From Alphaproteobacteria bacterium (GTDB taxonomy: Bacteria > Pseudomonadota > Alphaproteobacteria > UBA6615), in NCBI GenBank assembly GCA_039980135.1, contig JBDXCV010000006.1, forward strand, positions 62,001-126,000: a stretch of 64,000 nt of DNA, given 5' to 3'. Positions 4,935-51,543 of this stretch are shown in pieces. The position numbers and the translations under genes were made by a program. Below the pieces are notes generated by a model, which saw only the letters and a list, made by a program, of their open reading frames with translations, was not told the DNA's origin and did no database searches. The stretch's first letter is position 1. Every line of letters begins with the position of its first letter.

Positions 4935-5010
4935 TTGACCCCGCGTGAAATACGTCTAGTTTCTGCGGCGGGCCACACCTCCCCAACGAGGTGCGGCGTT
5001 CTGTAAGGAG
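4935..5010 (+). promoter_or_regulatory. serC 5' leader: strong hairpin next to the ribosome binding site (serC RNA motif-like)
   Basis: The 111-base gap before serC contains a strong hairpin at 4972-4997. Its stem is CACCTC (4976-4981) with GAGGTG (4988-4993) and loop CCCAAC, extended across an A/C mismatch by GCC/GGC. The ribosome binding site TAAGGAG (5004-5010) starts six bases after it and lies six bases before the ATG. A published alphaproteobacterial serC leader motif (Corbino et al.; Rfam serC) is described as having its final stem near or over the serC ribosome binding site in serC-serA operons. The position and shape agree here, but I could not run a covariance model. TTGACC at 4935 is a possible but weak -35 element. 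Confidence 0.55.
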
Positions 5011-5016
5011 CGCGTC

Positions 5017-6198
5017 ATGACGCAAACATCGAATAAGCCGGGCACCCGTCCGGTATCCCCACTCTTTTCCTCTGGCCCCTGCGCCAAGCGACCCGGCTGG
5101 TCGCTGGATGCGCTGAGCGATGCGAGCATCGGCCGTTCGCATCGCGCCAAGGGCCCCAAGGCCAAACTCCTGCGCGTGATCGAGGACAGCCGGTCGATTC
5201 TGGGAATTCCCGAGGATTACCGGATCGGCATTGTGCCCGCCTCGGATACGGGCGCGTTCGAGATGGCCATGTGGTCCGCTCTCGGCGCACGGCCGATCGA
5301 TATTCTTGCCTGGGAAAGCTTCGGCCAGGGCTGGGCCACGGACGTGGTCAAGCAGCTCAAGCTGGACGATGTCCGGCTGCTGGAGGCGGACTATGGCGCG
5401 CTGCCGGATCTCGATGCGGTCGATTTCGACAAGGACGTAATTTTCACCTGGAACGGCACGACATCGGGTGTCCGTGTGCCCGACGGGGACTGGATTCCCG
5501 ATGCGCGCGCGGGCCTGACCCTGTGTGACGCCACGTCCGCGGCCTTCGCCATGGAGCTGCCTTGGGACAAGCTCGATATTGTGACCTGGTCCTGGCAGAA
5601 GGTCCTGGGCGGTGAGGGACAGCATGGGATGCTCGTGCTCAGCCCGCGCGCGGTCGAACGACTGGAAAGTTACGCGCCGGCGTGGCCGCTGCCGAAAATC
5701 TTCCGCCTGACCAAGAGCGGCAAGCTGAACGAGGATATCTTCAAGGGCAGCACGATCAACACGCCCTCGATGCTCTGTGTCGAAGACCATCTCGACGCGC
5801 TCGACTGGTCGCGCGAGATCGGCGGCCTCGACGCGCTGGTTGCCCGTTCGAATGCCAACTTCGGCGTTATCGATGCCTGGGTGTCCGGCTCGGACTGGGC
5901 GGCGTTTCTCGCGGACGACCCGGACCAGCGGTCGACCACGAGCGTGTGCCTCAAGGTCGTTGACCCCTGGTTCACTTCGCTCGATGACGACGATCAGGCG
6001 GCAACCGCGAAGGCGGTGGCGAACCTGCTCGATTCCGAAGGCGTCGCGTTCGATGTCGGGGCCTATCGCGATGCCCCGCCGGGCTTGCGGATCTGGGCCG
6101 GCGCGACCGTCGAACAGTCGGATCTCGCGGCGCTGATGCCGTGGCTCGACTGGGCGTTCGAGAGCGTCAAGGCCGACCGCACCGCTGCCGCCGCCTGA
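5017..6198 (+). CDS. serC: Phosphoserine aminotransferase
   Basis: This PLP enzyme of 393 residues converts 3-phosphohydroxypyruvate and glutamate to O-phosphoserine, the second step of serine biosynthesis. Recognisable features are the N-terminus [14 protein letters not shown], the arginine/histidine segment [33 protein letters not shown], and the PLP-lysine region [15 protein letters not shown]. The sequence type matches the longer alphaproteobacterial/archaeal-type SerC rather than the E. coli form. serA follows after 63 bases, so the two genes form one operon preceded by a structured leader. The ribosome binding site TAAGGAG is well placed. Confidence 0.95.
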
Positions 6199-19590: not shown

Positions 19591-19666
19591 GTCCCGTTCG
19601 TCTAGTGGCCTAGGACGCTGGCCTCTCACGCCGGAAACAGGGGTTCGACTCCCCTACGGGATACCA
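19591..19666 (+). tRNA. tRNA-Glu (anticodon CTC)
   Basis: A 76-base cloverleaf with encoded CCA. The acceptor arm GTCCCGT pairs with ACGGGAT (G1-U72 wobble), the anticodon stem CTGGC pairs with GCCGG, and the loop is CTCTCAC with anticodon CTC at 19625-19627. The T-arm is CAGGGG-TTCGACT-CCCCT, and the discriminator A is followed by CCA. It closely resembles bacterial tRNA-Glu; the CTC anticodon reads GAG, the major glutamate codon in a high-GC genome. A promoter and an intrinsic terminator flank it, so it is a monocistronic unit. Confidence 0.97.
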
Positions 19667-46220: not shown

Positions 46221-46349
46221 CTAAATACCGGTGGCGGCCGCCAAGATGACGAACAGGGCGCCGCCCAGGCCGCCGGTCAGCATTCCGGTCGCAATCAGGG
46301 TGCTGCGTCCGATCAGCTTTCGGGTGTTGTGTTGCGAGGTGATCATCAT
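46221..46349 (-). CDS. Small single-TM protein (42 aa) heading the FecR operon
   Basis: The ORF encodes 42 residues: a basic N-terminus (SQHNTRKLIGRS) and one hydrophobic helix (IATGMLTGGLGGALFVILAA). The ribosome binding site GGAGAG lies directly before the ATG pair. It starts about 19 bases downstream of a predicted transcription start belonging to a class II CRP-type promoter, and its stop is 50 bases before the FecR gene. It could be a membrane peptide that works with the FecR/cyclase module. The coding call rests on the ribosome binding site, hydrophobicity and position; no homologue is known to me. Confidence 0.6.
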   Translation of the reverse strand: MMITSQHNTRKLIGRSTLIATGMLTGGLGGALFVILAAATGI

Positions 46350-46374: not shown

Positions 46375-46416
46375 AACCTAGCGACGAAAGACGGCGCGGG
46401 AAGTGACGGGGATCAC
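46375..46416 (-). promoter_or_regulatory. Class II CRP-type promoter of the small ORF/FecR operon
   Basis: Reading on the minus strand, the palindrome GTGATCCCCGTCAC (46416-46403; GTGA-N6-TCAC) is followed after exactly 22 bases by a TAGGTT -10 box (46380-46375). If that box spans -12 to -7, the palindrome is centred at -41.5 and transcription starts near 46368. The same two elements with the same spacing occur at 50762-50803. Binding of the nearby CRP-type regulator is inferred. Confidence 0.72.
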
Positions 46417-46417
46417 A

Positions 46418-46431
46418 GTGACGGGCGTCAC
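46418..46431. promoter_or_regulatory. Second CRP-type palindrome, 15 bp from the first
   Basis: GTGACGGGCGTCAC again fits GTGA-N6-TCAC and lies 15 bp, centre to centre, upstream of the first site. For the minus-strand promoter it would be at -56.5. For the plus strand it lies 22 bases before CATGTT (46454-46459), so it could also serve a divergent promoter for the 50-codon ORF at 46496; that -10 match is weak. Confidence 0.6.
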
Positions 46432-46495
46432 AGACAGGTGGGTGGGGGCAGGGCATGTTGTCCGTGGACTTCAACTGCAACCGGACGACGAACGC

Positions 46496-46648
46496 ATGAC
46501 CCGACGATCCGCCCTCACACATCATCTGGCGAGCAATGGTCTGTTCGAGAATTATGCCAACCGCACCATCCTGCGCATGTATCTGCGATGGGGGGCGGCA
46601 TCCTTTCTGGCCCTTGGCTTGATTTCGGTTGCATCGGTTGCGCTTTAG
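46496..46648 (+). CDS. Small single-TM protein (50 aa) upstream of the cyclase
   Basis: A 50-codon ORF: a polar, His-containing N-terminus (THHLASNGLFENYANR) and one C-terminal TM helix (GAASFLALGLISVASVAL). It lies between the divergent CRP-type sites and the cyclase gene and ends 52 bases before the latter. No good ribosome binding site is visible, so the call is tentative. It may be a membrane peptide co-expressed with the cyclase. Confidence 0.42.
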   Translation: MTRRSALTHHLASNGLFENYANRTILRMYLRWGAASFLALGLISVASVAL

Positions 46649-46700
46649 GCAGAGTTGCACCGGCGTTCTCCGGAATCGCACACTGGGCTAGATTGCGGGC

Positions 46701-48962
46701 ATGATCTCCTGGAAAGCCCGTATCATTCCGCTCCTGATTCTCGTGTTCGCGCTGTTGCTGCGCGTCGAAGACCCGCAGCCTGTGCAACTGGCACGACTGT
46801 GGACGTTCGATACCTATCAGCGGATCGAGCCGCGCGTATATGACAGCGCCTTGCCGGTGCGCATTCTGGACATCGACGATGAAAGCCTGGCGCGAATCGG
46901 TCAGTGGCCCTGGCCCCGCTCGCGGATCGCCGAGCTGGTCGACCGGCTGCACGCCAGGGGCGCGGCGGTGGTCGTGTTCGATATTCTCTTTGCCGAACCC
47001 GACAGGACGTCGCCGGCCAATGTGGTGGCGGATTGGCCCGACGGCCCCGACGATGCAGATCTCCGGGCGCGGGTTGCCGCGCTGCCCGACCATGATCAGC
47101 TCCTGGCCGAAGCGTTTGCGCGCGGGCGGGTGGTTGCCGGGTTTACGTTCACGCGTTCCCGCGAAACCGCGCCGCCGCCCGCGCCGAAGGCGGGTGTCGG
47201 ACTCGGCGGATCGCCGCCGCACCCGTTCCTGCCGGCCTATAGGGCGGCGATCGCCAATCTTCCCGCGCTCGGCGACGCGGCGGCCGGAATCGGCAACATC
47301 AACTTCGAAGCCGACGCCGATGGGCTGATCCGCAGAGTGCCGCTGTTTACCCAGTATGTGGCGCCGGGCACGACGCCGACCTATGACGACCCGTTCAAGC
47401 TGCCCCCGCTCTATCCGACGCTCGGAGCCGAGGCGCTGCGTGTGGCGCAGGGCGCGCAAGGGTTCAATATTCGCATGTCCGATGCGAGCGGCGAGGGTGG
47501 GGTCGATGAGAGTTCGGGAATCGCGAATATCCGGATTGGGCAGTTGCGGGTGCCGACGAGCGGCGATGGCCATGTTTGGTTGCGCTACACCGGTCATGAA
47601 CCGGCGCGCTACGTGCCGGCCTGGCGGCTCTGGTCGGCGGCCGAACCGCTCGGTGCCGAAGACGGTATCGAGGGCGCGATCATCCTGGTCGGGACGAGCG
47701 CGCCGGGCCTGTTCGACCTGCGTGCGACCCCGCTTAATTCGATCATTCCAGGGGTTGAGGTGCATGCCGAGCTTGTGGAGCAGATCCTCGATGGCAGCTT
47801 TCTGACGCGCCCGGACTGGACGCTGGGAGCGGAGCTGGCGGCGTTTGCGCTGCTGGGAGTTTTTTTGGTCCTGCTGCTGCCCAAACTTGGTGTCGCCGCG
47901 AGTGCCGTCGTTTGCCTCACGGCAATCACCGCCGGGGTGGCCGCGGGCTGGTTTGCCTTTACCTCCGTCGGGGTTCTGATCGATCCGGTGTTTCCGGCGC
48001 TGGTGGTGCTGGTGGTCTATCTGTCGAGTTCGCTGATCACCTATTTGCAATCGGAGACCCAGCGCCGCCAGATTCGCACGGCCTTCGGGCAATATCTGTC
48101 TCCGGCGCTGGTCGAACAGCTCGCCGACCAGCCCGAGCGCCTGAGGCTGGGCGGCGAGACGCGCGAGATGACGCTGTTGTTCTGCGATATCCGGGGATTC
48201 ACCTCCATATCCGAAGAACATCGCGATGACCCGCAGGCCCTGACGGCCCTGATCAACCGCCTGCTGACACCCATGACGGCCGAAATCCTGGAGCGTGACG
48301 GGACCATCGACAAGTATATGGGCGACTGCATCATGGCGTTCTGGAACGCGCCGATCGACGACCCGGCCCATGCGTCGCACGCGTGTGACGCTGCGCTCGC
48401 CATGCTGCGCGCACTCGGGCAGGTGAATGAGGCGCGTCTGGCGGAGGATCCGGAGGCGGTCGCGATCGCCGTGGGGGTCGGTCTCAACACGGGCGAATGC
48501 GTGGTCGGGAATATGGGATCAGATCAGCGGTTCGACTATTCGGTGCTGGGCGATGCGGTCAATCTCGCGGCCCGACTCGAGGGCCAGTCGCGGCCCTACG
48601 GGATGCCGATCATTGTGGGTGAGTCGACGCGCGATCAGGTGGCGGATGAATTCGCGTTCCTCGAACTCGACCTGATTGCGGTGAAGGGAAAGCGGGAGGC
48701 CGTTCGTATCTATGCGCTGCTGGGGGATGCCGATGACGCGGCGAGCGAGGACTTCAAGGCCCTGCAACGCGAGCATGGGCTGATGCTGGACGCCTATCGC
48801 GCCCGCGACTGGGATCGCGCACAAGATGTGCTCAATGTCTGCGTCGAAATGCCCGGCGCCGTCGGCGCATTTTACGATCTGTATGCCGAGCGTATTTTCC
48901 ACTATTCCTTCGATCCCCCGCCGGAGGATTGGCAGGGCGTCCACATCGCAGAAATGAAATGA
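46701..48962 (+). CDS. CHASE2-domain class III adenylate/guanylate cyclase
   Basis: A 753-residue membrane sensor. An N-terminal TM helix (IIPLLILVFALLLRV) leads into an extracytoplasmic CHASE2 domain (about residues 25-370; IDDESLARIGQWPWPRSRIA, VVVFDILFAEPDR). Three TM helices follow (about 375-445), then a class III cyclase domain (about 490-670). Metal-binding aspartates lie in LFCDIRGFTSIS and YMGDCIMAFW, the adenine-selecting Lys in TIDKYMGD, and the transition-state Asn/Arg in LGDAVNLAARLEG. The Lys favours cAMP over cGMP. It probably converts an envelope signal to cAMP for the CRP-type regulator encoded 2 kb downstream. Confidence 0.93.
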   Translation: MISWKARIIPLLILVFALLLRVEDPQPVQLARLWTFDTYQRIEPRVYDSALPVRILDIDDESLARIGQWPWPRSRIAELVDRLHARGAAVVVFDILFAEPDRTSPANVVADWPDGPDDADLRARVAALPDHDQLLAEAFARGRVVAGFTFTRSRETAPPPAPKAGVGLGGSPPHPFLPAYRAAIANLPALGDAAAGIGNINFEADADGLIRRVPLFTQYVAPGTTPTYDDPFKLPPLYPTLGAEALRVAQGAQGFNIRMSDASGEGGVDESSGIANIRIGQLRVPTSGDGHVWLRYTGHEPARYVPAWRLWSAAEPLGAEDGIEGAIILVGTSAPGLFDLRATPLNSIIPGVEVHAELVEQILDGSFLTRPDWTLGAELAAFALLGVFLVLLLPKLGVAASAVVCLTAITAGVAAGWFAFTSVGVLIDPVFPALVVLVVYLSSSLITYLQSETQRRQIRTAFGQYLSPALVEQLADQPERLRLGGETREMTLLFCDIRGFTSISEEHRDDPQALTALINRLLTPMTAEILERDGTIDKYMGDCIMAFWNAPIDDPAHASHACDAALAMLRALGQVNEARLAEDPEAVAIAVGVGLNTGECVVGNMGSDQRFDYSVLGDAVNLAARLEGQSRPYGMPIIVGESTRDQVADEFAFLELDLIAVKGKREAVRIYALLGDADDAASEDFKALQREHGLMLDAYRARDWDRAQDVLNVCVEMPGAVGAFYDLYAERIFHYSFDPPPEDWQGVHIAEMK

Positions 48963-49048
48963 TTTCTCAAGGGCTTAGGCCGCTCCCTCGCGCTTGCCCC
49001 GATTTGGCACATCATGCTTAATACCTCCATACTTTGGGGGTTTTGTTG

Positions 49049-50500
49049 GTGCGAGTGCCGAGTATTCTGTTGCGCGCATGTGGGCGAGCGCGCCGCAGTT
49101 TCCGCTATGGGTTGCTGATTGGCGGCGTGATCTCGTTCGCGTTGCCCGCGCATGCCCAGCAGTCGGCCACGGAATCGCGTGAAAGCGACGTCCGGGAATC
49201 GATCGAGACACGACGCGAAGTCGAGCGCACGGCCCAGGAGGCCCTCGACCTGGAGGCTTTCAGCAGGGGTCCGCCCGTCACATTCCAGCAGGTGCTGGAG
49301 GACCCCGACAACATCGAGCTGAATGTCCGGTATGCGCTGACCCAGATCCGCGAGGGTAATGTACGCGGCGCGGGCGCGACCCTGGAACGGGTCCTGCTGA
49401 TCCGGCCCGACCTGGCCGTGGTGCGGGTCCTGTTCGCGATTGTCCTGTTCCGGCTCGACAATCTCGATGAGGCCGAGCGCGAACTCGTCGCGTTGAAGGA
49501 GCTGGATCTGGAGGCGCAGCTGCGGCGCCAGATCGATCAGTATCTCGATCAGATTGTGGCACGCCGCAAGAAGACGATCTTCACCCTCGCGGTGAACTTC
49601 GCTACCCAGTATGACTGGAACCGCAACGCGTCGCCCAAATCGGAACTTCGCCTCGCGGCCGACTTGCCGACCCGCACCGTCGACGGTTCCTCGCGCCAGG
49701 ACGACATCGCGATGAACGGGCTGGCGCAGCTTTCCTTCGAACATGATCTCGGCCTGCAGAAGCAGCACAAGATGCTGGGCGGGCTGGTTTTCTATCAGGG
49801 CGAGCAGACCCAGCAGGATGACCTCGACCTGCGGGCGATCACCGCAGATTTCGGATATGAACTCGATTTCGCACCGTCGACGATCACGCCACGCCTCCTG
49901 TATGAGCGCATTGATCTGTCGCGTGAGAAATACCTGACCGCGATCGGGACGACGGTCGACTGGGTCTATGCCCTGTCCAACACCTGGTCGGTGTTTGCCG
50001 GCGGGACGATGAAGTATCAGTCCTACAACAACATCACGAGCAGCCTTACCGCCACGCAACGCAGCGGCCGGGAGTATGAAGCCAAGCTGGGAATGTCGCA
50101 GATTCTCACTCCGCGCCAGCGTGTGCGCGTGACGTTGACGCAGACTCGCAATATCGCGGCGCGCAGTTTCAACTCGTACGAACAAAGCGAAATCGGTGTG
50201 ACCCACACGATGCTGTTCGGCGACGGCGATTTTCTGCTCAGTTCGCTCACCGTCAACTATGACCAGTATGACGATCGAGACCCGTCGATCAGTGCGCGCA
50301 ACCGGCATGATTGGGGCGGCCGCGCACGGATGACCTACGGCATTCCTTGGGGAAGCGTGTTCACCAATGCGGGTGAATTCTGGCAGCCTTTCACGTTTAC
50401 ATTCGGCGGTGAAGCGTTCCGGCAGGTCTCGTCGATTACCAACTATACCTACAACAATTACCGGTTGTCCGTCGGCCTCAACCGCCGCTGGACGTTCTGA
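49049..50500 (+). CDS. SLAM-like outer-membrane protein (TPR plus DUF560 beta-barrel)
   Basis: A 483-residue exported protein. The signal peptide (YGLLIGGVISFALPAHAQ) is followed by a TPR-like helical region (about residues 70-165; NVRYALTQIREGNVRGAGAT, AIVLFRLDNLDEAERELVAL). A large C-terminal beta-barrel follows (about 175-483) and ends in the outer-membrane signature LNRRWTF. TPR plus DUF560 barrel is the architecture of surface lipoprotein assembly modifiers, which move surface proteins across the outer membrane. GGGGG lies eight bases before GTG 49049; TTG codons just upstream are alternatives. It follows the cyclase by 86 bases. Confidence 0.78.
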   Translation: MRVPSILLRACGRARRSFRYGLLIGGVISFALPAHAQQSATESRESDVRESIETRREVERTAQEALDLEAFSRGPPVTFQQVLEDPDNIELNVRYALTQIREGNVRGAGATLERVLLIRPDLAVVRVLFAIVLFRLDNLDEAERELVALKELDLEAQLRRQIDQYLDQIVARRKKTIFTLAVNFATQYDWNRNASPKSELRLAADLPTRTVDGSSRQDDIAMNGLAQLSFEHDLGLQKQHKMLGGLVFYQGEQTQQDDLDLRAITADFGYELDFAPSTITPRLLYERIDLSREKYLTAIGTTVDWVYALSNTWSVFAGGTMKYQSYNNITSSLTATQRSGREYEAKLGMSQILTPRQRVRVTLTQTRNIAARSFNSYEQSEIGVTHTMLFGDGDFLLSSLTVNYDQYDDRDPSISARNRHDWGGRARMTYGIPWGSVFTNAGEFWQPFTFTFGGEAFRQVSSITNYTYNNYRLSVGLNRRWTF

Positions 50501-50531
50501 TGCCGATCGCAGGCAGGACGCCTCGCAGGGC

Positions 50532-50571
50532 TGGAAAAGAAAGGCGGCCGGTCTCGTGAGAGCCGGCCGCA
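50532..50571 (-). terminator. Intrinsic terminator of the CRP-regulated small transcript
   Basis: An eight-base stem GCGGCCGG/CCGGCCGC (50544-50551 with 50563-50570) is followed on the minus strand by a T-rich CTTTCTTTT tract. It ends the transcript that carries the 29-codon ORF, giving a predicted RNA of about 220 bases. There is no T-run on the plus side. Confidence 0.65.
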
Positions 50572-50619
50572 AGTCCACAGGGAGGTTGGATCAGTGCGAA
50601 AAGATCACACCTGTCGAAG

Positions 50620-50709
50620 TCAGAAGCCCGGTGTCACCGACATTCCGAAAATCACCATCGGGGCTGCCAGGAGGAGGGCGGCGACGTTGATGCGGGTTTG
50701 TCGTGACAT
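50620..50709 (-). CDS. Small hydrophobic peptide (29 aa) under CRP-type control
   Basis: A 29-codon ORF (MSRQTRINVAALLLAAPMVI, then FGMSVTPGF): a short basic N-terminus and one hydrophobic helix. CGGAG lies about seven bases before the ATG. It is the only ORF in a transcript bounded by a class II CRP-type promoter and an intrinsic terminator. The same locus could instead encode a roughly 220-base regulatory RNA with an incidental ORF. No homologue is known to me. Confidence 0.55.
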   Translation of the reverse strand: MSRQTRINVAALLLAAPMVIFGMSVTPGF

Positions 50710-50761
50710 GGTCGGCTCCGTTTCGGTTGGTGTGCGGCGATGATCCGTCGCCGTTGATACA

Positions 50762-50803
50762 AACCTAATGCGCAACCAGCCATTCCCCAGTGACGGCAGT
50801 CAC
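50762..50803 (-). promoter_or_regulatory. Class II CRP-type promoter of the 29-codon ORF
   Basis: On the minus strand GTGACTGCCGTCAC (50803-50790) is followed after exactly 22 bases by TAGGTT (50767-50762). This puts the palindrome at -41.5 and the start near 50755, 46 bases before the ATG. An A/T-rich tract at 50812-50828 lies at about -57 to -73, where an UP element would help; it could alternatively be the U-tract at the end of the regulator gene. The geometry is identical to the promoter at 46375-46416. Confidence 0.72.
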
Positions 50804-50844
50804 AGGCCGGACAATAAAAATAAAAAAACAGACGGAACAGAGAC

Positions 50845-51543
50845 TTAAAAGTCCCTAACTTCCTCAACCAGGTCCTCGAGACGTTCGAGATCGAGGATGG
50901 CGAGGGCGTCTTTCTCGCGTTTGACCAGGCCCTGCTTGGCGAGGTCGCTCAACACGCGGGCGACCGTCTCGCGGGTCGTGCTGACCCGGGCGGCGATATC
51001 CGCGTGGACCGGAATTGGCGAGATGTGGGCGGTGTTGGCGTCCGTGTCGGCCTGCGCGCGCGCCTCGCGCAGGATTTCCGAATGTACCCTGTTGTGCGCG
51101 CCCAGGGTGCTCAGATCCATGATGCGTTCCGTCGATGTGCGCACGATCTTGGCCAGTTGCTGCATCACCCCGATGGCGAGATCAGAATGGTCGCGTAGCA
51201 AATTCAGGAACGTGTCGGGTGAAATCGTCGCCACGAGCGTATCGGCCAGCGCGACGACGGCGGCCGATCGGGGCATACCGTCGAGCGCGGCGAGTTCCCC
51301 GAAGACACCCCCGGGTTCCATTTCGTCGAAGCTGATCTCGCGCCCTGAAATGGAGAAATTCACAACCCGCACACGGCCCTCGACCACGAAGAACACGTCT
51401 CGGGATTCACTCTCCCGGTCGATGATCGTGTCGTTGGCCGAATAGCGGACCCAGCGCGCGCGCTGTTCGAGCGCGGCGCGGGATGATTCGCTCAACGGTC
51501 CGAGAAACGGGATGTCTGCGAGGCTGTGTCCGGGTCCGGTCAT
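50845..51543 (-). CDS. CRP-type transcriptional regulator (Crp/Fnr family)
   Basis: A 232-residue regulator. The N-terminal cyclic-nucleotide-binding domain (about residues 10-130) has the phosphate-binding cassette FGELAALDGMPRSAAVVAL, whose Glu and Arg-Ser match cAMP contacts in E. coli CRP (E72, R82, S83). A dimerisation helix follows (KIVRTSTERIMDL). The C-terminal winged HTH has the recognition helix STTRETVARVLSDL, retaining the Arg-Glu...Arg trio that reads TGTGA in CRP. There is no cysteine, so it is not an FNR-type iron-sulfur sensor. It follows the RND genes on the same strand (67-base gap), and matching GTGA-N6-TCAC sites lie on either side of the cyclase/SLAM genes. Confidence 0.9.
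   Translation of the reverse strand: MTGPGHSLADIPFLGPLSESSRAALEQRARWVRYSANDTIIDRESESRDVFFVVEGRVRVVNFSISGREISFDEMEPGGVFGELAALDGMPRSAAVVALADTLVATISPDTFLNLLRDHSDLAIGVMQQLAKIVRTSTERIMDLSTLGAHNRVHSEILREARAQADTDANTAHISPIPVHADIAARVSTTRETVARVLSDLAKQGLVKREKDALAILDLERLEDLVEEVRDF

Follow-up and report, generated by a model that had tools for sequence, protein, structure and literature searches.

In Sinorhizobium meliloti, four genes are found close to one another: clr (SMc02175), which encodes the regulator, cyaD1 (SMc02176) for a CHASE2 cyclase, smc02177 for a FecR protein, and smc02178, a target of Clr (PMC5498481; CHASE2 also in PMC13001267; these and the other papers cited here are used from the parts of their text that were available). 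Clr binds GTNNCNNNNGNNAC and answers to both cyclic AMP (cAMP) and cyclic GMP (cGMP), and 8 of its 20 confirmed targets are small proteins of <100 amino acids (aa) (PMC10127613). It directly activates the cyclase gene cyaF2 and the small RNA SMelC181, most of its sites lie at -42 to -76 from the start, and the S. meliloti genome has 28 cyclases (PMC5498481, PMC10127613, PMC13001267, PMC7529298); NsrA, an outer-membrane barrel, acts upstream of such cyclases (PMC13001267, PMC7529298). CgrA of Rhodospirillum centenum has the same TGTGA-N6-TCACA site as the locus studied here but is reported as cGMP-dependent and controls cyst development (PMC4681086). Our locus lies in a stretch of 64,000 nucleotides (nt) of an alphaproteobacterium of the UBA6615 lineage (contig JBDXCV010000006.1, positions 62,001 to 126,000 of the forward strand; assembly GCA_039980135.1), which is called the window below, and it holds a CRP-type regulator gene, a CHASE2 cyclase gene, a FecR-domain gene and three palindromes. 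We consider it probable, judging from sequence, that the local regulator binds these palindromes and activates class II promoters in response to a cyclase signal, with the set of targets described below.

As in the Clr-CyaD1-FecR arrangement, a CRP-family regulator, a CHASE2 cyclase and a FecR gene stand close together here, the genome has many cyclases, and the predicted targets include small proteins, a cyclase gene and an RNA; the likeness is one of arrangement and target types. The systems differ in recognition, which is GTGAY-N4-RTCAC with the helix RETVAR here and GTNNCNNNNGNNAC with a divergent helix in Clr, and in geometry, which is -41.5 throughout the set found here. The Clr site GT-YH-C-N4-G-RW-AC was not matched, the inner bases being GA/TC here, and its GTNNC-N4-GNNAC frame fits most of our sites, not all. 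NsrA extends to about residue 1200, whereas the probable barrel protein of the window is 488 aa long. E. coli CRP class II promoters share with ours the site at -41.5, the missing -35 consensus and the RETV(G/A)R helix (class II rule in PMC10127613), whereas the few targets seen here are mostly envelope-type and signalling genes, not catabolic ones. From the comparison with Clr and CgrA, the circuit of the window appears to belong to a known type and to have a recognition code of its own, a rigid promoter layout and other outputs.

The sequences themselves show the sites, their rigid geometry, the orthologous promoters, the co-occurrence of pattern and regulator, and the covariation in the RNA. 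We infer the binding protein, the ligand, the activation, the signal and the role of each target as follows. The local CRP-family regulator would bind the palindromes and, from -41.5, activate class II promoters. A stimulus at the envelope, relayed perhaps by the TPR/barrel and FecR proteins, would alter the activity of CHASE2 cyclases, and a cyclic nucleotide, most likely cAMP, would load the regulator. The loaded regulator would turn on microprotein A and FecR; transcript B, with its microprotein and possible regulatory RNA; a second operon with a CHASE2 cyclase; a protein with a caspase domain; a small protein of exported type; and a structured RNA in front of the speD operon. Such a scheme would provide a testable cyclic-nucleotide regulon for a marine lineage from sequence alone, with starts predicted to the base, would suggest that the cyclase-FecR-CRP circuit of a plant symbiont is a wider envelope-sensing module, and would offer a new structured RNA and several microproteins as circuit outputs.

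Putative regulator sites and promoter layout

All three palindromes of the window, read on the minus strand, are exact CTGTGA-N3-CCGTCACT of the TGTGA-N6-TCAC type (Table 1). The preliminary description of this DNA, made from its letters, had placed them correctly, and its statement that the window holds no other exact match agrees with our scan of the 64 kb. Its gap of 22 base pairs (bp) from palindrome to TAGGTT is likewise exact at promoters A and B, and it puts the site centres at -41.5 when the start is taken as the seventh base beyond the hexamer, the starts being predictions. A second element near -57 had been proposed for both promoters; at promoter A it is indeed a palindrome, centred at -56.5, which is kept in three of four relatives and missing in G003, while at promoter B it is an A/T tract at -58 to -73. 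When three mismatches were allowed, the window gave 7 matches against 5.2 expected, nothing special, so that the exact form alone is informative. A variant with an N5 instead of the N6 spacer, of value as a control only, had 0 matches at one mismatch.

In the whole genome of 3.76 Mb, exact CTGTGA-N5-GTCACT occurs four times, three of them in the window, against 0 for the reversed control. The fourth site (C3:1092094) has TACATA 22 bp away and heads the gene of a small exported-type protein. A promoter search with up to two mismatches returned 36 matches against 8 in the control, comprising 4 exact, 2 one-mismatch and 30 two-mismatch matches, the last of which were left out of the regulon count. 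Six promoters of the site plus 22-bp design thus have at most one mismatch, and four of them are outside the window; the one-mismatch search adds the C3 place and the promoter of the caspase-domain (C14) protein, whose layout (C10:54803-54845, L088) stands 5' of a Peptidase_C14 gene. A class II site at C9:627321 belongs to a second CHASE2-cyclase operon (C9:620000-630000, L113), in which an exported-type 232-aa protein without Pfam match is followed by a CHASE2 cyclase and then by a TPR-CHAT protein. The earlier idea of a circuit encoded in one locus was not borne out: four of the six promoters lie elsewhere and the genome has 14 class III cyclase domains, which rules out a single local circuit and makes the local cyclase just one of several possible sources.

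Conservation of the promoters in the family

The family sample comprised 24 genomes, and an order-level search gave the same 24. The pattern TGTGA-N6-TCAC-N22-TANNNT has 30 matches in them against 1 for the reversed pattern and is therefore not a product of chance, an origin ruled out by the reversed-pattern controls in the own genome, in these 24 genomes and in 289 genomes of the class. Conservation in related genomes had been named beforehand as a test, and orthologous promoters do recur at the same genes. Sorted by eye into groups with similar downstream genes, the 30 matches gave five in group A (41-45-aa open reading frame (ORF), then FecR; window, G021, G022, G023, G003) and eight in group B (29-31-aa ORF 3' of the regulator; window, G023, G021, G008, G003, G020, G001; G002 has a group B site, its product unread). 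Seven belong to group C (structured RNA; window genome, G021, G022, G023, G003, G001, G011), to which is added site L042 of G012, with an RNA unlike group C 5' of a speD-like ORF; two belong to group D (exported-type 232-aa protein first; window genome and, for the first gene, G022) and one to group E (small exported-type protein in G007, similar to the one at C3:1092094). The remaining matches are L052 beside the G012 regulator and the single L040, L041, L043, L050 and L057.

The inner Y..R of the palindrome, which was no part of the search pattern, is present in 28 of the 30 matches (exceptions L043 and L057). We aligned 28 promoters of 29 loci, L036 of G002 being dropped; L043 (from the AT-rich G015, treated as chance), L050 and L057 were omitted, and L087 and L088 were added from the own-genome search. 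These promoters were selected on the 22-bp gap and are not independent, because many are orthologues. The fifth -10 position is T in 24 of the 28, so that a TAnnTT box emerges, and a CA start emerges from A at +1 (19/28) and C at -1 (16/28); no -35 consensus appears over the 28. The A+T content is 70% at -64..-58, against 36-50% in nine other stretches compared, the highest of which are -74..-65 (50%) and -6..+33 (46%).

When family loci were fetched by the regulator protein alone, GTGA-N6-TCAC was found within 133 bp 3' of the regulator stop in all eight that were parsed, with a TA-hexamer at exactly 22 bp in seven. Outside this eight-locus test stood L008, where the regulator is truncated, L011, at a contig end, and L015-L018; of these family loci, L016 and L018 have the site, and L008, L011, L015 and L017 show none. 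The class II spacing of -41.5 from the predicted start was thus present, with no selection on the gap, at these seven of eight regulator loci and at four of four extra loci of the structured RNA described below. In named records, the near relatives are environmental metagenome-assembled genomes in five of six loci, and the sixth is a distant match.

Pattern and regulator across Alphaproteobacteria

In a class sample of 289 Alphaproteobacteria genomes, the regulator profile (cut-off 1e-30) matches 98. The pattern with the 22-bp gap has 101 matches in the sample against 8 in the control, divided into 88 against 2 where the regulator is present and 13 against 6 in genomes that lack it. Counted by genome, it occurs in 42 of the 98 with the regulator and in 11 of the 191 without (42/56/11/180), and the Fisher value of 6e-14 for this co-occurrence ignores relatedness and genome size. 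At 18 loci outside the family, fetched by the regulator profile, TGTGA-N6-TCAC is present in 10, and 15 strand matches were counted against a mean of 0.4 and a maximum of 3 in 50 mononucleotide shuffles. Five of the 10 site-bearing loci have a TA-hexamer at 22 bp, and a looser scan adds L170 and L178; in L168 the site lies about 1 kb from the regulator gene. The downstream-gap parse covered the eight family loci and these 18 others, L172 and L181 being unparsed there but within the shuffle-control scan. The -41.5 layout could make regulon prediction practical in other Alphaproteobacteria.

Structured RNA upstream of speD

A structured RNA of 76 nt (C9:154096-154171, L123) lies under a regulator-type site 5' of speD. 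Its 5' hairpin is joined by a pyrimidine-rich, CCC-containing linker to a long 3' hairpin, and the copy of the window's genome has a folding z of -8.6. A covariance model built from seven sequences finds it in 11 of the 24 family genomes, and at all 11 loci TGTGA-N6-TCAC ends 34 bp before the predicted 5' end, with a TA-hexamer at 22 bp; the seven model sequences came from the site search and the other four (G004, G006, G007, G008) did not. Covariation is seen directly: 14 of the 24 pairs show a two-sided change in at least one of the 11 sequences, six are broken or gapped in at least one sequence, and five pairs of the 5' hairpin are invariant. Rfam had no match above its cut-off for the copies of four of the 11 genomes that were scanned (L062, L035, L051, L037), and in L035 RF02901 overlaps the RNA at 43.8 bits against a cut-off of 97, and the flank gives a comparable match on its opposite strand. 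Under stricter filters the RNA was found in 2 of the 289 class genomes, both of this family. Its linker could pair with ribosome-binding sites. CyaR and Spot 42 are CRP-controlled small RNAs of enterobacteria, and our RNA is like them in its placement under a CRP site; here, the RNA is tied to the speD operon.

The chances seem to us evenly balanced that this RNA is the 5' leader of the speD operon rather than an independent small RNA. The RNA is followed directly by speD in 8 of the 11 genomes and by a DSBA-family gene in 3, and the order after the RNA in the window's genome is speD (AdoMet_dc), spermidine synthase, DSBA-family gene; since the DSBA-family gene lies there behind the other two, gene loss from a single operon could account for all 11 loci. 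In the window's genome the final hairpin lacks a U-run, which also favours a leader, whereas the G012 RNA, under the same kind of site and before an ORF that is speD-like by eye, ends in a strong hairpin and TTTTTT.

Predicted transcripts A and B

Homologues of microprotein B, 29-31 aa long, were found in five relatives and in G001, and in six genomes transcript B has a conserved 3' part that includes AACCUCC, or a closely similar motif, as well as a terminator. This 3' part could serve as a regulatory RNA, as a second function of the transcript. Two small envelope transcripts had been predicted for the window; the sequence supports two short transcripts with small membrane-type ORFs, but promoter A leads into the FecR gene as well as a small protein. 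In several other families, short ORFs or CCUCC-terminator transcripts likewise lie 3' of the regulator gene. The CCUCC-motif small RNAs of the Rhodobacter CcsR type lie 3' of small-protein genes and have RpoH-type promoters; transcript B resembles them in its small ORF followed by a CCUCC-containing 3' RNA and terminator, placed here under a CRP site instead. The suhB/mmgR RNA family gave matches in five of eight loci scanned 3' of the regulator (L165, L166, L172, L177, L181), at 24.8-29.3 bits and so below the cut-off of 41 bits, and membership in that family was not accepted.

We suggest tentatively, with slightly less than even confidence, that across Alphaproteobacteria this CRP subfamily has, immediately 3' of its own gene, a CRP-activated class II transcript that serves as a membrane microprotein of 30 aa, as a CCUCC-type small RNA or as both, and that it also drives the new structured RNA in one marine order. 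If true, this would be a cyclic-nucleotide-to-RNA regulatory arm in Alphaproteobacteria. No description of such an arm beyond SMelC181 was found in the literature for this class, most subscription papers lying outside the search, and in the available text of the CgrA paper (PMC4681086) the term 'small RNA' appears only in a reference.

The second palindrome at promoter A may have another use, which we hold possible but somewhat doubtful: it would act not as a helper of promoter A but as the class II site of a promoter that reads rightward into the 50-aa ORF and the cyclase, forming a feedback loop. It stands exactly 22 bp before CATGTT, the three relatives having CACTCT, CACCTT and CACTCT there, and with site centres 15 bp apart joint binding of the two palindromes would be unlikely. 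Against this, the hexamers, known from four sequences only, are without the first T of TANNTT, the site is missing in G003, and the CATGTT layout is one of the 30 two-mismatch matches of the own genome, where the whole search had 8 controls.

The regulator as probable reader of the sites

The regulator is as it had been described, with 232 aa, 0 Cys, a PRSA cassette and a RETVAR helix. It matches the cNMP-binding domain PF00027 at 73.4 bits and the Crp helix-turn-helix (HTH) domain PF13545 at 48.5 bits. In a regulator alignment that includes E. coli CRP, G82, E83, R92 and S93 are invariant, the cNMP cassette being intact, as are R191, E192, V194 and R196 (R-E-x-V-x-R). Identity to E. coli CRP is 22%, and the E. 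coli CRP equivalog NF008732 gives 72.7 bits, below its curated cut-off of 266 bits; by sequence the protein is a CRP relative and not the E. coli CRP equivalog. In the ranking of solved structures, those of the C. glutamicum (4cyd) and M. tuberculosis (3h3u, 3mzh, 3d0s) regulators precede that of Clr (7pza, 9.6e-17), which is also one of the nearest.

The local CRP is the likely reader of the sites, because its RETVAR helix is invariant, it has the sole R-E-x-V-x-R of six HTH matches, and the pattern tracks the regulator in the class. RVSTTRETVAR is unchanged in nine aligned family members, the window's own included, and TTRETVAR is present in all those outside-family loci, 15 of 18, for which a search with a related motif gave a helix. 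The genome has six places that match PF13545, with R-E-x-V-x-R in the local regulator only; the other strong match is an FnrL-like protein with the helix ETVSR and an N-terminal Cys, and the four weak matches (22.3-27.7 bits), which have no R-E-x-V-x-R, are of other HTH types by sequence. A paralogue in G001 (contig C25; L024, L057), 42% identical to the regulator, has the helix HREAVSR and an adjoining site TGTGAGTTTTCTCAC with a TA-hexamer at 22 bp, so that the changed helix goes with changed inner bases. A 41% relative of the regulator on an Azospirillum brasilense plasmid (L213) has the helix RREAVSR and is annotated beside a cyclase-domain gene.

Several observations weigh against our proposal. 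The exact pattern is absent from 56 of the 98 class genomes with the regulator, and the local cyclase is not singled out among the 14. G004 (98% complete) and G007 (89%) have the RNA with a perfect site, and no regulator orthologue was found in them; G013 (61% complete) has a regulator match with one stop codon and 0 pattern matches. In G022 the regulator has a replaced end and its contig lacks site B, in G020 the regulator is fragmented and none of the cyclase, barrel and FecR genes was found within about 10 kb of it (L069), and in the alignment G021 has Ala opposite E. coli T127.

The neighbouring cyclase matches PF05226 (CHASE2) at 205.6 bits and PF00211 at 81.9 bits, and an alignment with CyaB and others shows that it agrees with solved adenylyl cyclases at the metal, lysine and Asn/Arg positions; by its domains and intact positions the protein is a predicted CHASE2 class III adenylyl cyclase, in line with the cyclase type proposed earlier. 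As the ligand, cAMP rather than cGMP is plausible. The same promoters and regulator could instead answer to cGMP or to either nucleotide, as published for CgrA and Clr, and this we regard as unlikely. CgrA, which binds TGTGA-N6-TCACA, is reported as cGMP-only (PMC4681086) and Clr answers to both (PMC10127613), and the pocket residues G, E, R and S do not decide the ligand, because they are common to E. coli CRP and named for Clr (PMC10127613). Against cGMP stands the local cyclase, one of 14, which has the DKYMGD lysine and a Ser where the adenylyl cyclase CyaB has Thr. These cyclase positions, the lysine and the Ser/Thr, set the preference for ATP.

It is highly improbable that the reader is a different Crp/Fnr protein, for instance the FnrL-like one, in which case the sites would report oxygen instead of cyclic nucleotides: G004 has an FnrL-like protein and the site-bearing RNA with no regulator orthologue found, but the FnrL-like protein has its own helix ETVSR, TTTGACGTGCGTCAA, the type of site that an FNR-type reading would want, stands 22 bp before TAGGCT next to its gene (C9:654539-654581) as an FNR-type version of the same layout, the TGTGA-N6-TCAC pattern tracks CRP in the class and is often beside the CRP gene, and G007, which keeps the site, gave no FnrL-like match either.

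Neighbouring genes

Table 1. Features of the locus, in positions of the window
Feature	Position	Strand	Remarks
FecR-domain exported-type protein, 552 aa	44513..46171	-	3' of microprotein A
Microprotein A, 42 aa, MMITSQHNTRKLIGRSTLIATGMLTGGLGGALFVILAAATGI	46221..46349	-	
-10 box TAGGTT of promoter A	46375..46380	-	predicted start A46368
Putative regulator site of promoter A, TGTGATCCCCGTCAC(T)	46402..46418	-	centre -41.5; kept at this position in 4 relatives
Second palindrome at promoter A	46417..46433	.	centre 15 bp upstream of first site's centre
Small membrane-type ORF, 50 aa	46496..46648	+	directly 5' of CHASE2 cyclase
CHASE2 class III cyclase, 753 aa	46701..48962	+	DKYMGD lysine
TPR and probable outer-membrane beta-barrel protein, 488 aa	49034..50500	+	TPR_19; start codon uncertain
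Conserved 3' part of transcript B, CACTGATCCAACCTCC, followed by a GC hairpin and a T-rich run	50535..50600	-	terminator
Microprotein B, 29 aa, MSRQTRINVAALLLAAPMVIFGMSVTPGF	50620..50709	-	
-10 box TAGGTT of promoter B	50762..50767	-	predicted start A50755
Putative regulator site of promoter B, TGTGACTGCCGTCAC(T)	50789..50805	-	centre -41.5; also 3' of regulator gene in relatives
A/T tract of promoter B	50813..50828	.	-58 to -73, UP-element position
CRP-type regulator, 232 aa (cNMP_binding and HTH_Crp_2)	50845..51543	-	helix RETVAR, no Cys

Five relatives were examined for the gene order. The FecR gene stands beside the cyclase in four of them; CRP, TPR/barrel, cyclase and FecR follow the order of the window in G023, G021 and G003, and G022 has CRP, cyclase and FecR in this order, the barrel gene not being found. 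The 50-aa ORF was found in three of four relatives examined, with its C-terminal half conserved. The 488-aa neighbour is likely an outer-membrane barrel, as suggested by a low-confidence three-sequence model with TPR helices and 14 strands of at least nine residues; the structure models of this protein are weak, with mean pLDDT (predicted local distance difference test) values of 36.6 and 49.3. Elsewhere in the window, Rfam identified a serC leader RNA and a tRNA, at 4966-5017 (+) and 19591-19663 (+), respectively.

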